Shown here: piece by piece, positions 53,750-64,000 of the stretch
How the letters are laid out: each line of letters opens with the position of its first letter
Numbering within the stretch: position 1 is the first letter of the stretch
Assembly (NCBI RefSeq): GCF_003096415.1
Contig: NZ_QEKH01000022.1
Span: 1 to 64,000, forward strand
Length of the DNA stretch: 64,000 nt
From: Victivallis vadensis
GTDB lineage: Bacteria > Verrucomicrobiota > Lentisphaeria > Victivallales > Victivallaceae
Reading direction: 5' to 3'
Made by a program: the position numbers and the translations under genes
The notes under the pieces: model-generated
The model's database searches: none
What the model was told of the DNA's origin: nothing
The model's input: the letters and a program-made list of their open reading frames with translations, nothing else

Positions 53750-54030
53750 CTGCCGGGATTTCGCCTTCGGCGACCAAGGCGCTTCGCCCTTGGAACCCGA
53801 CCGGCAAGGTGCCGGTGCCGAATACTTCAGATCCGGGAAAGGCATACCGCCTTTCCCTCCGGGGGGGAGGCTCTACTGTGGACAGGCAGGCGGGTACCTG
53901 AGCGGCACACCGCTCCGGTCGGCACAAAGCCCGCTTTTCTGCGGGCTTCAGGCACTCCCTGCGGTGAGCTGCCGCCGGAGGTCACGCGCGGAACCTCCAG
54001 ATGCTGACCAGATAATAGAAAGATACCCTG

Positions 54031-54231
54031 ATGGAGGCTGATAAGAACTCATCTGCCGATATACGCAAAGCGAGGTCAGGCAACAATACAATTGCCATAT
54101 CACAGGCAAGCATATCTTTGAGTACGAGCCTTACTGAACCTTGCCTGTATTATGGGATAGGCAAGGCGAGATCAGGCAACAATGCAGTTGCCAACCCACA
54201 GGCAAGCATCTTGGAATACGAGCCTTACTGA
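54031..54231 (+). CDS. Small 66-residue frame inside the palindromic element
   Basis: The frame starts at ATGGAGGCTGAT in the left terminal repeat and encodes two copies of a KARSGNN motif separated by about 32 residues. No ribosome-binding site is visible. The same frame, with one residue changed, exists in the second element copy at 63710-63910 (minus strand). Conservation is fully explained by the copying of the element, so coding is doubtful. Confidence 0.2.
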   Translation: MEADKNSSADIRKARSGNNTIAISQASISLSTSLTEPCLYYGIGKARSGNNAVANPQASILEYEPY

Positions 54232-54260
54232 ACCTTGCCTGTATTATGAGGATAGGCAGA
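54070..54260. repeat. Two ~96-bp tandem units at the centre of the palindromic element
   Basis: Unit 1 starts at 54070 and unit 2 at 54166, both with GCGAGRTCAGGCAACAAT. Each contains GGCAA-N8-TTGCC and a 9-bp stem ACAGGCAAG / CTTGCCTGT (54102-54110 with 54140-54148; 54198-54206 with 54234-54242). The pattern suggests folded RNA or cruciform DNA. Confidence 0.8.
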
Positions 54261-54562
54261 GTTCAGCCTCCATGAGAGTACCTTTCTATTATCTGGTCAG
54301 CATCTGGAGGTTCCGCGCGTGAACTCCGGCGGCAGCTCACCACAGGGAGTGCCTGAAGCCTGCAAAAAAGCAGGCTTTGCGCCGACCGGAGCGGTGTGCC
54401 GCTCAGGTACCCGCCTGCCTGTCCACAGTAGAGCCTCCCCCCCCGGAGGGAAAGGCGTTTCGCCTTTCCCGGATCTGAAGTATTCGGCGCCGGCACCTTG
54501 CCGGTCGGGTTCCAAGGGCGAAGCGCCTTGGTCGCCGAAGGCGAAATCCCGATTTCCCGGAT

Positions 54563-58601: not shown

Positions 58602-58630
58602 TTGACATTTGAAATTTGATACGATATATT
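58602..58630 (+). promoter_or_regulatory. Promoter of tig-clpPX
   Basis: TTGACA (58602-58607), a 17-bp spacer and TATATT (58625-58630). The leader to the ATG at 58722 is about 85 nt. Confidence 0.75.
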
Positions 58631-58721: not shown

Positions 58722-60029
58722 ATGGCAAAGAAGTTGGTGGATTCCATCCAGATGGAAGTGCGGGATGCTCAGCCGTGCCGCAAGGAATTTGATTTCGTCG
58801 TTCCGGCGGACGTGGTGAAGAGCGAGGCCGAGAAGACCGTGCGCGAGATCGCCGGGATGGTGTCGGTTCCGGGCTTCCGCCAGGGCAAGGCTCCGGTCAA
58901 CATGATCAAGACCAAGTATGACGGTGAAATCAGGGAAGAACTGCAGCGTAAGATCATGTACGCCGCGTTTGAGATGGCCAGCAAGGATGAGGTCTACGAT
59001 ATCATCTCCTGCGGCATCGAAGGCAAGCCCGAGCTGAAGCTCGATGCAGAATTCAAGTTCACCCTCGGCGCGGACGTCGCTCCGGAGATCGAAGTCGGCG
59101 ACTACAAGGCGATCAAAGTCGAAATTCCGAAGGACGCCGTTACCGACGAGCAGGTCGAGGAGCGTGTGAAGTTCTACCGTACGATGTACGGCAACTACGC
59201 CGACGTCGAAGGCGCCGCGCAGGCCGAAGATATGCTCAAGGTCAGCTACAAGAGCGACTTCGAGCTGCCGGAGGACGCGACCCCGGCGGTGAAGCGCCAG
59301 GCCGAAGCCGACAACACTTTCATCTGGCTCAGCGAACCTGAGTCGATTCCGGGCTGCATCAAGGCGCTGACCGGTGCGGAAAAAGGCAAGGAATACACCT
59401 TTGACGCGGTCTATCCGGCCGACTACCGCGAAGCCGCCCTCGCCGGCAAGACCGTGAAATACACGGTGAAGGTCGAAGGCATCCAGCGCCGTTCGGTGCT
59501 GACCGACGAGGAACTGGCCGAGAAGGCCCGCGTGAAGTCCCTCGAAGAGTTCCGCGATATGCTGCGCAAGGCGATGGAGCAGGAGAGCGAAACCAAGCAT
59601 CACAATGAAGTGGTCGAGGCGGTCTACAAGCGGCTGGCCGAGCAGGTCGGCGACGTCGAGCTGCCTCCGAACGTGCTGCAGGCTGAAATTTCCAAGGAGC
59701 TCCAGAAGATCGCCCGCGAAGTGGTGAAGAGCGAGGAAGACGCCGAAACCTTCAAGAAGGAGCTGGAAACGCACAAGGCTGCCGCCGAAAAGGCCGCGCG
59801 GGAGTCCCTGAAGAAGAGCTTCATCCTGCGCAAGATCGCGAAACTGGAGAATATTTCGCTGTCGCAGGGCGAAGTGGATGAACAGCTCAATCAGATGAGC
59901 CGTTACTACGGTTACAAGGAGAAGGAATTCCGCGCGATGCTCGAAAAGAACGGCGGAATGGACGATCTCCAGCTTGATCTCATCAATGCCAAGGTGCTGA
60001 GCATGCTTGCGGAATCCGCGGCGAAGTAA
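58722..60029 (+). CDS. tig: Trigger factor
   Basis: The 435-residue protein has the trigger factor ribosome-binding signature [10 protein letters not shown] at about residues 46-55, the PPIase-like middle domain, and a helical C-terminal domain rich in Glu/Lys. It binds nascent chains at the ribosome exit and helps folding. The start at 58722 gives the normal N-terminus ([10 protein letters not shown]); AAGGAAAGG lies 12 nt upstream. An upstream in-frame extension (from 58662) is not conserved. It is followed by clpP and clpX, the usual order in many bacteria. Confidence 0.93.
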
Positions 60030-60196: not shown

Positions 60197-60802
60197 ATGA
60201 AGAGCAATTCGTTTCTGGTTCCGATGGTGGTCGAACAGACCGGACAGGGAGAACGCGCATTCGATATCTACAGCCGGCTGCTGAAAGACCGGATTATTCT
60301 GCTGGGAACCCCGATCGACGACGATGTCGCGAACCTGATCGTGGCGCAGCTGCTGTTTTTGCAGGCCGAAGATCCGAAAAAGGACATCGACCTTTATATC
60401 AACAGCCCCGGCGGTTCGGTGACGGCCGGCCTGGCGATCTACGACACGATGCAGATTCTCTCCTGCGACGTGAAAACCTACTGCGTCGGACAGTGCGCGT
60501 CGATGGGCGCGGTGCTGCTCTGCGCCGGCGCCGCCGGCAAGCGGTTCGCGCTGCCGAACAGCCGGATCATGATCCACCAGCCGTGGGGCGGTGCGCAGGG
60601 CACTGCGGCCGATATGGATATCCAGGTCAAGGAGATCCAGCGGTTGAAGGCGATGCTGAACGGCATTTTGTCGTCGCACTCCGGCCAGCCGATCAAAAAG
60701 ATCGAAAAGGACACCGAGCGCGACTTCTTCATGGGAGCCGAAGACGCCGTCAAATACGGTCTGGTCGACAAGGTCGTCGCCCGGCCTTCGCAGGAGAAGT
60801 AA
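60197..60802 (+). CDS. clpP: ATP-dependent Clp protease proteolytic subunit
   Basis: The 201-residue protein has the ClpP catalytic triad: Ser102 ([11 protein letters not shown]), His127 ([11 protein letters not shown]) and Asp172 (KDTERD). YINSPGGSV, the oxyanion strand, is present. It forms the barrel-shaped tetradecamer that degrades proteins unfolded by ClpX or ClpA. It lies 167 bp after tig and 3 bp before clpX, so the two Clp subunits are probably made together. Confidence 0.96.
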
Positions 60803-60805
60803 CCG

Positions 60806-62134
60806 ATGGCCGGAAAACGCGGAAACCGTAAATTGATCTGCGCCTTCTGCGGCGCCACGGAAGGGGACGACCCGTCGGTGATTTTTGCTCCGAGCGGTTA
60901 TGAAGGCCTGGCGATCTGTTCAAACTGCCTGAAGCAGGGTTATACCGCCCTCTGCGCCGATCAGGCTGCCGGTGCGGCGGTCAAGGAGAAGAACGCGGAA
61001 AATCCGGTTGCCAGCCTCCGGGTGCCGAGCCCGGCTGAAATCAAGGCCGAACTGGATCAGTATGTGATCGGGCAGGAACGCGCCAAGCGGGTGCTCGCCG
61101 TCGCGGTTCACAACCATTACAAACGGCTTCAGACGCAGGCCGGAGTCCACACTTCCGCGGCGCGGGATCTGTTCAGCGACGTCGAGCTCGACAAGAGCAA
61201 CGTGCTGCTGCTCGGACCGACCGGCAGCGGCAAGACGCTGCTGGCGAGGACGCTGGCCCGGCTGCTGGATGTGCCGTTCGCGATCTGCGACGCCACGACT
61301 CTGACCGAAGCCGGCTATGTCGGCGAGGATGTGGAGAACATTATCCTGCGGCTGTTTCAGGCCTCCGGCTCCAATGTGGAACGCACCCAGATCGGGATCA
61401 TCTATGTCGACGAGATCGACAAGATCGCCCGCAAGACCGAGAACGTGTCGATCACCCGCGACGTCTCCGGCGAGGGAGTGCAGCAGGCGCTGCTGAAGAT
61501 CCTCGAAGGCACGGTTGCGAATGTGCCGCCGCAGGGCGGCCGCAAGCATCCGCAGCAGGAGTTCCTGCGTATCGACACCTCGAATATCCTGTTCATCTGC
61601 GGCGGTGCGTTCGTCGGGCTGGATAAGATCATCCAGCGCCGTTGCGGCAAGCAGGTGCTCGGTTTCAAGCGTCTGGTGGACGATGAAGCGGAGCAGGCGG
61701 AACTGGATGCCGAGCATCTCGCGAAGAATCCCTATGCGAAGTGCGAACCCGAGGACCTGATCCGGTTCGGACTGATTCCGGAGTTTGTCGGCCGCCTTCC
61801 GGTGGTCACTTCGCTTGAACCGCTGCGCAAGGAGGACCTGATCCGGATTCTGAAGGAGCCGAAGAACGCGCTGATCCGCCAATACCAGCGGCTGCTGGGT
61901 ATGGAAGGGGTTACGCTGGAATTCACCGAGGACGCGCTGGAAGCACTGGCCGACAAGGCGGTGGCGCGTGGCACCGGCGCGCGCGGGTTGCGTGCAATCC
62001 TTGAGGAGATGATGGTCGATGTGATGTTCGACGCTCCATCCCGGGAGGGGATCAGCCGCTGCGTGATCGACGGCGCGGTGATCCGCGGCGAAGCGGAGCC
62101 GCAGCTGCTCGGCGAAACGCGTAAGGCACAATAG
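60806..62134 (+). CDS. clpX: ATP-dependent Clp protease ATP-binding subunit ClpX
   Basis: The 442-residue protein has the N-terminal zinc finger (CAFCG...CSNC), Walker [12 protein letters not shown], Walker [10 protein letters not shown] and the arginine-finger region typical of ClpX ([12 protein letters not shown]). It unfolds substrates and feeds them to ClpP. Length and motif order are normal. It lies 3 bp after clpP. Confidence 0.96.
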
Positions 62135-62154: not shown

Positions 62155-63297
62155 ATGAATACCGTATCTGACAGCATGGAGACGAAAACCCGGGTGCTTT
62201 CGACGGATTCTCCGCTTTTGGCAGCGGGGGATTCGGTCGATGTGCTTTCCACGCTTCCGGTCAAGCCGCAGGAGCGCTACCGGTTTATCCGGAGCATCGG
62301 TTTCGGCGGAATGAAGGGGGTGCTGCTGGTATTCGACCAGGACACCGGCCGCGAAGTCGCGATGGCGATCATGCCGGATTTCCGGGACCGCCCCAAGACG
62401 GACCTGGAGAAATTCGTGCGCGAAGCCAAGCTGACCGCGCATCTGGAACACCCGAACATCGTGCCGGTTCACGATATCGGCATCGACGGCTCGGGTTCTC
62501 CCTACTTTACGATGAAATACCTGCACGGGCAGTCGCTCGCTTCCGTGCTGCGCAAGATTCAGAAGGAGGACGCCGAGACGATCGCCAATTACGGATTGGT
62601 CCGGCTGCTCCACATCTACACCCGGATCTGTCACGCGATCGAATTCGCACACTCGCAGGGAATCTGCCATCTGGACCTGAAGCCGGAAAACATCAATCTC
62701 GGCGACTTCGGTGAGGTGCTGGTTCTGGATTGGGGGCTGGCGCGTTCGTTGAAAAGTCCCGCTTCCGGCGGACTGCTTGCTCCGAATGAGGCGGGCGATG
62801 AGGTGGCCGGCCGGGTGAAGGGCACACCGGGTTACATGGCCCCGGAACAGATCCGCACTCTGAACAGCGCTCCGATCGACGTGCGTGCCGACGTGTACGC
62901 GCTGGGGGCGATTCTGTATGCGATGCTGGCGCTGACCAATCCGCTGGCGCGGCTGTCGGTCGATGAGATTCTGCGCCGCACCGTGACCGGCGAACTGCCG
63001 CCGCCCACGGAGGTCGCTCCCGAGGGACGGTATGTGCCCGCCGCGCTGGAGGCGATCTGCATGAAGGCGATGGCGCTGCGCCCGGCGGACCGGTATGCGA
63101 CGGTGCGGGAGCTGCGGGAGGACATTTTCGCGTTTCAGTCCGGCTACGTGCCGAAGGCGGAAAACGCCTCTCCGCTGAAGCACGCCGGACTGTTCATCGG
63201 CCGGAACTACCTGATTTTGCTGGTGCTGCTGACGGTGAGCCTGAGTGTGGCGCTGATCCTGCTGGCGATCAACTACTACCGGGTGGTGGCGGAGTAA
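62155..63297 (+). CDS. Tail-anchored Hanks-type Ser/Thr kinase with WNK-like lysine position
   Basis: The 380-residue protein has kinase motifs: glycine loop GFGGMKGV (residues 49-56), HLDLKPEN at 172-179 (HRD Asp174, Asn179) and DWG at 192-194. The usual VAIK lysine is replaced (VAMA, Ala71), but Lys54 in the glycine loop sits 17 residues before it, the WNK arrangement. Glu90 is the likely alphaC Glu. A single transmembrane segment (about 351-374) ends the chain, leaving only a few residues outside. No sensor domain is present. It follows clpX by 20 bp; no strong ribosome-binding site is seen. Confidence 0.85.
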   Translation: MNTVSDSMETKTRVLSTDSPLLAAGDSVDVLSTLPVKPQERYRFIRSIGFGGMKGVLLVFDQDTGREVAMAIMPDFRDRPKTDLEKFVREAKLTAHLEHPNIVPVHDIGIDGSGSPYFTMKYLHGQSLASVLRKIQKEDAETIANYGLVRLLHIYTRICHAIEFAHSQGICHLDLKPENINLGDFGEVLVLDWGLARSLKSPASGGLLAPNEAGDEVAGRVKGTPGYMAPEQIRTLNSAPIDVRADVYALGAILYAMLALTNPLARLSVDEILRRTVTGELPPPTEVAPEGRYVPAALEAICMKAMALRPADRYATVRELREDIFAFQSGYVPKAENASPLKHAGLFIGRNYLILLVLLTVSLSVALILLAINYYRVVAE

Positions 63298-63387: not shown

Positions 63388-64000
63388 GGGATTTCGCTCC
63401 TTTAGAGCGAGCAGGGCGCTTCGCCCCTGCACCCCGACCGGCAAGGTGCCGGCGCCGGGTATTTAGATCCGGGAAAGGCGTTTCGCCTTTCCCTCCGGGT
63501 GGGGGAGGCCCCGGTAGAGACAGGCAGGCGAGTACCTGAGCGGCACACCGCTCCGGTCGGCGCAAAGCCTGCTTTTTTGCAGGCTTTAGGCACTCCCTGC
63601 GCCTGCTGCCGCCGGAGTTCACGCGCGGAGCCTCCAGATGCTGACCAGATAATAGAAAGGTACTCTCATGGAGGCTGAACTCTGCCTATCCTCATAATAC
63701 AGGCAAGGTTCAGTAAGGCTCGTATTCCAAGATGCTTGCCTGTGGGTTGGCAACTGCATTGTTGCCTGATCTCGCCTTGCCTATCCCATAATACAGGCAA
63801 GGTTCAGTAAGGCTCGTACTCAAAGATATGCTTGCCTGTGATATGGCAATTGTATTGTTGCTTGACCTCGCTTTGCGTATATCGGCAGATGAGTTCTTAT
63901 CAGCCTCCATCAGGGTATCTTTCTATTATCTGGTCAGCATCTGGAGGTTCCGCGCGTGACCTCCGGCGGCAGCAGGCGCAGGGAGTGCCTAAAGCCTGCA
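63388..64000. repeat. Second copy of the palindromic element, truncated by the window end
   Basis: The left arm runs from GGGATTTCGC at 63388, with H1 GCAGGG...CCCTGC (63411-63430), H2 CCGGCA-AGG-TGCCGG (63438-63452) and GCCTGC-T6-GCAGGC (63567-63584). The AT-rich centre from about 63630 to 63945 is the reverse complement of 54000-54310 with few changes, including the two tandem units and the 66-residue frame (63710-63910, minus). The right arm begins near 63950 and leaves the window. 63298-63387 shows nothing. Confidence 0.85.

Follow-up and report, generated by a model that had tools for sequence, protein, structure and literature searches.

The gene at positions 62155-63297 of the window, by which we mean the whole 64,000-nucleotide stretch of Victivallis vadensis DNA that was analysed, encodes a PknB-like protein kinase with a relocated lysine. 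Its sequence and those of its relatives make it highly likely that this is an active kinase in which the end of the glycine loop (as Lys54), and no longer beta-3 (the VAIK motif), supplies the lysine that anchors the ATP phosphates. The loop lysine is the property of an entire clade, beyond the single protein first noted, and it is accompanied by a change at a third site, the arginine of the HRD motif. The gene and its characteristic elements are as follows.

62155..63297, + strand: Ser/Thr-type protein kinase gene, 380 amino acids, with the relocated lysine (ORF, Pfam, AlphaFold2)
62299..62322, + strand: glycine loop GFGGMKGV, residues 49-56, aligned with PknB GFGGMSEV and WNK1 GRGSFKTV
62314..62316, + strand: Lys54 codon (AAG), which aligns with the WNK1 glycine-loop lysine and PKA Gly55
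62356..62367, + strand: beta-3 VAMA, residues 68-71, wherein Ala71 (62365-62367) replaces the VAIK lysine
62422..62424, + strand: Glu90, the helix-C glutamate (PKA Glu91), invariant in alignment A1 (46 diverse clade members, down to 36% identity)
62668..62691, + strand: catalytic loop HLDLKPEN, residues 172-179, wherein Leu173 replaces the HRD arginine and D174, K176 and N179 are invariant in A1
62728..62736, + strand: DWG metal-binding motif, residues 192-194, invariant in A1; in the larger set position 193 is W in 110 and F in 2
63208..63270, + strand: predicted C-terminal transmembrane segment, about residues 352-372, within a single helix (340-379) of the structural model

The protein matches the Pfam family PF00069 (Pkinase) with E 1.9e-36 and 126.2 bits, relative to a curated cut-off of 31.7, and its AlphaFold2 model (mean pLDDT 88.8) has a confident kinase fold. 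The helix-C glutamate, the catalytic aspartate and asparagine, and the metal-binding aspartate of this family are all present (E90, D174, N179 and D192), but the VAIK lysine is not. This lysine is usual in PF00069, yet membership without it is possible, as is the case for the active kinases WNK and POMK. Lys54 takes the place of the third glycine of the glycine loop. The loss of the VAIK lysine (Ala71), the presence of Lys54 exactly 17 residues earlier, and the intact HLD, Asn179 and DWG, to which the preliminary description had drawn attention, can all be read directly in the open reading frame. There are 13 Pkinase genes in this genome (L001-L013), and the shifted lysine is found only in the window kinase, leaving aside L013, which is a fragment.

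Relatives were collected from the same phylum, from a one-genome-per-species collection, from five genomes outside, and from matches to a DNA pattern. Among the 161 complete kinase domains, which were picked by similarity to the window kinase or, in the pattern sets, selected on Lys54 and HLD and not on the VAIK-position residue (which was spanned by one of the six peptide probes used to search the species collection), the loop lysine occurs without the VAIK lysine in 112 and the reverse is found in 49, with none having both lysines or neither. The VAIK position is occupied in the loop-lysine clade by A in 110 members and by G and T in one each, compared with K in 49 of the 49 kinases outside the clade, which carry G, A or S at the loop position. 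The Lys54 codon varies across the clade (AAA in 67, AAG in 44), and thus it is the residue that has been kept and not the DNA. Position 173, which corresponds to the HRD arginine, is L in 102, F in 9 and Y in 1 of the clade members and R in 38 of the 49 outside. Of all columns in the kinase domain, these three (loop, VAIK and HRD arginine) separate the two groups best. G51, K54, E90, D174, K176, N179 and D192, by comparison, are invariant in A1. The presence of Lys54 in 112 sequences rules out sequencing error as its source, and its invariance, together with the alignment to PknB, WNK1 and the VAIK-lysine paralogues, rules out chance or misalignment.

Every loop-lysine member has a hydrophobic residue in place of the HRD arginine, a third co-change that is absent in WNK. 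A DNA-pattern search of 195 genomes for a loop lysine combined with a retained HRD gave no true case; the single match proved to be an ATGAAA located upstream of an ordinary GGMG loop and in a different reading frame. Since the lysine-shifted clade has one origin, the co-change represents a single evolutionary event, though one that has been well kept since.

This single origin is evident in a tree from which the three trait columns (loop, VAIK and HRD arginine) were left out, wherein the loop-lysine kinases form one side of one branch (SH-aLRT 99) and only one change is required. The sister rows of the clade belong to the same phylum and are bacterial kinases that retain the VAIK lysine; the nearest of these on the tree, which adjoin the clade, are L011 from the same genome as the window, L088 and L091. 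Loop-lysine kinases are found mainly in the phylum that includes Victivallis, Lentisphaera and Verrucomicrobia, with named loci in Lentisphaerota, Kiritimatiellota and Verrucomicrobiota. When the search was carried beyond the window, as had been proposed from the start, a strict DNA pattern, which required HLD and a Met-Lys pair in the glycine loop, was present in 75 of 388 genomes of this phylum, in 1 of 294 genomes in a planctomycete phylum, and in 0 of 146 genomes in a third phylum, that of genome G389.

Four genomes of family f11 (G192, G209, G233 and G315) have 11-15 strict-pattern matches each, a few of which are out of frame, and thus exhibit a large expansion. Some of their loop-lysine members have VA-K-A or IA-K-A, in which a lysine lies one residue before the VAIK position. 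The sole positive among the 294 planctomycete genomes is G388 (MAG nwagbin3), which carries at least five copies, including L096, L098, L104 and L112. Either these copies were gained horizontally, or the MAG is misplaced or mixed. No viral copies of the loop-lysine kinase were found.

In the mechanism we propose, Lys54 would reach the alpha and beta phosphates of ATP and pair with Glu90, and would thereby do the job of WNK1 Lys233 and POMK Lys91; the ATP-anchoring lysine would have moved independently of both WNK and POMK. There is precedent from mutagenesis for the beta-2 lysine of WNK1 (PMC10211241), and for POMK, wherein the K93G mutant is dead and the K93G/S108K mutant is active again (PMC5142810). 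One possibility is that the clade proteins are instead pseudokinases, which bind nucleotide or serve as scaffolds without phosphotransfer and use Lys54 only to stabilize the nucleotide or the loop. The VAIK lysine and the HRD arginine are both gone, as in the usual first signs of such proteins, and a membrane segment at the C-terminus is known from bacterial pseudokinase families (the GLW family, PMC12599244). However, most of the families described in that source have degraded versions of the catalytic motifs, whereas the catalytic Asp and Asn, the metal-binding Asp and the helix-C Glu are invariant here over very diverged members, and the exchange of lysines is exact. A dead domain is not expected to keep these residues, and so we infer that the clade kinases are catalytically active and consider a pseudokinase unlikely; the initial impression that the window kinase is probably active is supported as a prediction by the same invariant set. 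In RD kinases, the HRD arginine reads the phosphorylated activation loop. Its loss suggests that an active kinase of this clade may not need activation-loop phosphorylation. WNK keeps this arginine, and its loss in the clade, in which the clade is unlike WNK, is a point against the proposed mechanism.

The preliminary description had also placed Lys54 at the position of the WNK catalytic lysine, and the alignment bears this out. The glycine-loop lysine of WNK1, whose letters in the alignment were confirmed against PDB WNK1 chains, falls on K54 and its cysteine on A71, and the spacing is 17 residues in both. In PKA numbering, the WNK change is G55K with K72 lost (PMC1821047), and the arrangement in the window kinase is identical. 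WNK and the clade are alike in having the loop lysine, in having lost the VAIK lysine, and in keeping the helix-C Glu, the catalytic Asp and Asn, and DxG. They differ in that WNK has Cys at the VAIK place and keeps HRD and DLG, whereas the window kinase has Ala71, HLD and DWG. In addition, the WNK chloride-pocket residues differ in the clade, and the clade sequence groups with bacterial kinases. Could the clade nevertheless descend from a WNK that was taken up from a eukaryote, as the identical lysine spacing might indicate? An AU test does not reject the union of WNK1 and the clade (p 0.14), with WNK1 represented by a single row on a long branch. However, a free tree of a smaller set plus WNK1 positions WNK1 apart from the clade and among VAIK-lysine rows only, which requires two changes. 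The same-phylum bacterial sister rows likewise speak against such an acquisition, as do the nearest solved structures, which are those of PknB; there is no WNK among the 60 best PDB sequence matches of the window kinase, though many WNKs are in the PDB. The lack of a WNK chain among the best 50 listed of the structural comparison is no evidence against kinship. Phylogenetic kinship with WNK is not supported by the sequences, and acquisition from a eukaryote is extremely improbable. WNKs sit among the eukaryotic STE-like kinases, and because they belong there, a separate origin is the natural reading. Thus, the relocation of the lysine in bacteria appears to be separate from that in WNK.

A related proposal is that these are bacterial WNKs in function, with chloride bound at the vacated beta-3 site and gating the enzyme. 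The backbone amides of Gly370 and Leu371 hold the chloride ion in WNK1, where Phe283, Leu299, Leu369 and Leu371 surround it, and this pocket may coincide in part with the usual location of the lysine (PMC7606576). The shared lysine arrangement and the WNK-like Leu carried by most clade members at position 195, the equivalent of Leu371, are consistent with such a function, but this is the only pocket position that usually agrees. The position of Phe283 is V, I or L in the clade, that of Leu299 is F or Y, and that of Leu369 is W (110) or F (2); an L369F change makes WNK1 chloride-insensitive (PMC7606576). Moreover, the DWG Trp is also present in 34 of 49 VAIK-lysine relatives, which means that the lysine shift was not what it adapted to. 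Thus, the lysine arrangement is WNK-like and the chloride site is not. The early hint of chloride binding does not hold up, chloride sensing is not supported by the residues at these positions, and we regard a chloride-gated kinase as very unlikely.

The best solved match of the window kinase is PknB from M. tuberculosis (sequence E 2.7e-36; structure Z 32.1, 34% identity). The two proteins share the fold, a nearly identical GFGGM loop and membrane anchoring, but PknB keeps the VAIK lysine, HRD and DFG, whereas the corresponding features of the clade are a loop lysine, Ala at the VAIK position, HLD and DWG. PASTA repeats are absent from the window kinase, which has about 8 residues beyond the membrane segment, and its score against PknB_PASTA_kin is 198.1 bits, below the cut-off of 450. 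The best NCBIfam match of the kinase domain is chlamydial PknD (PRK13184), also below its cut-off (232.8 bits, cut-off 839); the match covers the kinase domain only, and the VAIK-lysine sister rows match well too. There is no named NCBIfam family for the window kinase beyond general kinases. POMK (SgK196) is similar in that its lysine has migrated to the start of beta-2 and has been shown to be essential (PMC5142810), but its other catalytic motifs and its helix-C Glu are also moved or lost and it phosphorylates a sugar. In the CAK-chloro small-molecule kinases, the positive charge has apparently moved from K72 to position 55 (Arg55/Met72; PMC1821047). However, this residue is an arginine and not a lysine, the helix-C Glu is replaced by Phe, and the family is not of the protein-kinase type.

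The window kinase is located at the end of a conserved run of genes.

58602..58630, + strand: candidate sigma-70-like promoter upstream of tig, TTGACA-17-TATATT (from a scan for the consensus alone, which would also be expected to yield one site of this kind by chance)
58722..60029, + strand: tig (trigger factor), first gene of the conserved run (Pfam Trigger_N, Trigger_C)
60197..60802, + strand: clpP, conserved upstream (Pfam CLP_protease, E 8.5e-83)
60806..62134, + strand: clpX, ending 20 bp before the kinase gene (Pfam zf-C4_ClpX, AAA_2)

For the short form of the kinase, 49 loci were examined, some of which represent the same species twice. In all of them clpX is found directly upstream of the kinase, preceded by tig and clpP wherever the flank reaches far enough, and the encoded protein always ends in a hydrophobic helix or tail segment. 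The C-terminal anchor and the place after clpP-clpX, both regarded as unusual in the preliminary description, are therefore real and conserved. Longer clade members have other C-terminal parts, which in L059 and L060 are leucine-rich repeats, and none of those with sufficient flanking sequence has the tig-clpP-clpX neighbourhood. Given the conserved clpX linkage and tail, it is plausible that the short form is co-transcribed with these genes and takes part in ClpXP proteostasis, the tie to ClpXP being one of gene order alone. A more tentative suggestion is that its site of action is the membrane, with ClpXP itself, or proteins that ClpXP handles, as the target. A literature search for Ser/Thr phosphorylation of ClpX or ClpP found nothing. 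By a looser analogy with the chloride gating of WNKs, the lysine move and the loss of the HRD arginine might have left the beta-3 site open to a small ion or metabolite, such that a membrane-bound kinase would be gated directly in its active site and pass the signal on to ClpXP, although we consider this improbable.

There is no Rfam RNA element at the kinase locus. Directly downstream of the kinase is a palindromic intergenic element of ~420 nt (63578-64000), a second copy of which is located at about 53944-54362. Its 101-nt arms are 95% complementary, and several dozen related copies occur across many contigs of the genome, in the manner of a REP or MITE family.

POMK is a later addition to the functional ePKs that lack the VAIK lysine. 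In 2007, WNK was called the only such family (PMC1821047). Our literature searches, which covered sources other than the 2025 bacterial kinase atlas, wherein a prior description is possible, found no bacterial protein kinase with the WNK lysine. None of the pseudokinase families described in PMC12599244, which lists those from a 42-family bSTK atlas (O'Boyle 2025), matches the loop-lysine clade. A large and old bacterial clade with a WNK-like move would represent an independent replicate of active-site migration. Because extant relatives represent both states, and because a third site changed as well, the order and the cost of the change are testable by simple mutants. The clade also carries a warning for annotation, in that the VAIK rule would file its kinases as pseudokinases, and the fixed place behind clpX provides a lead to the function of one of its branches.
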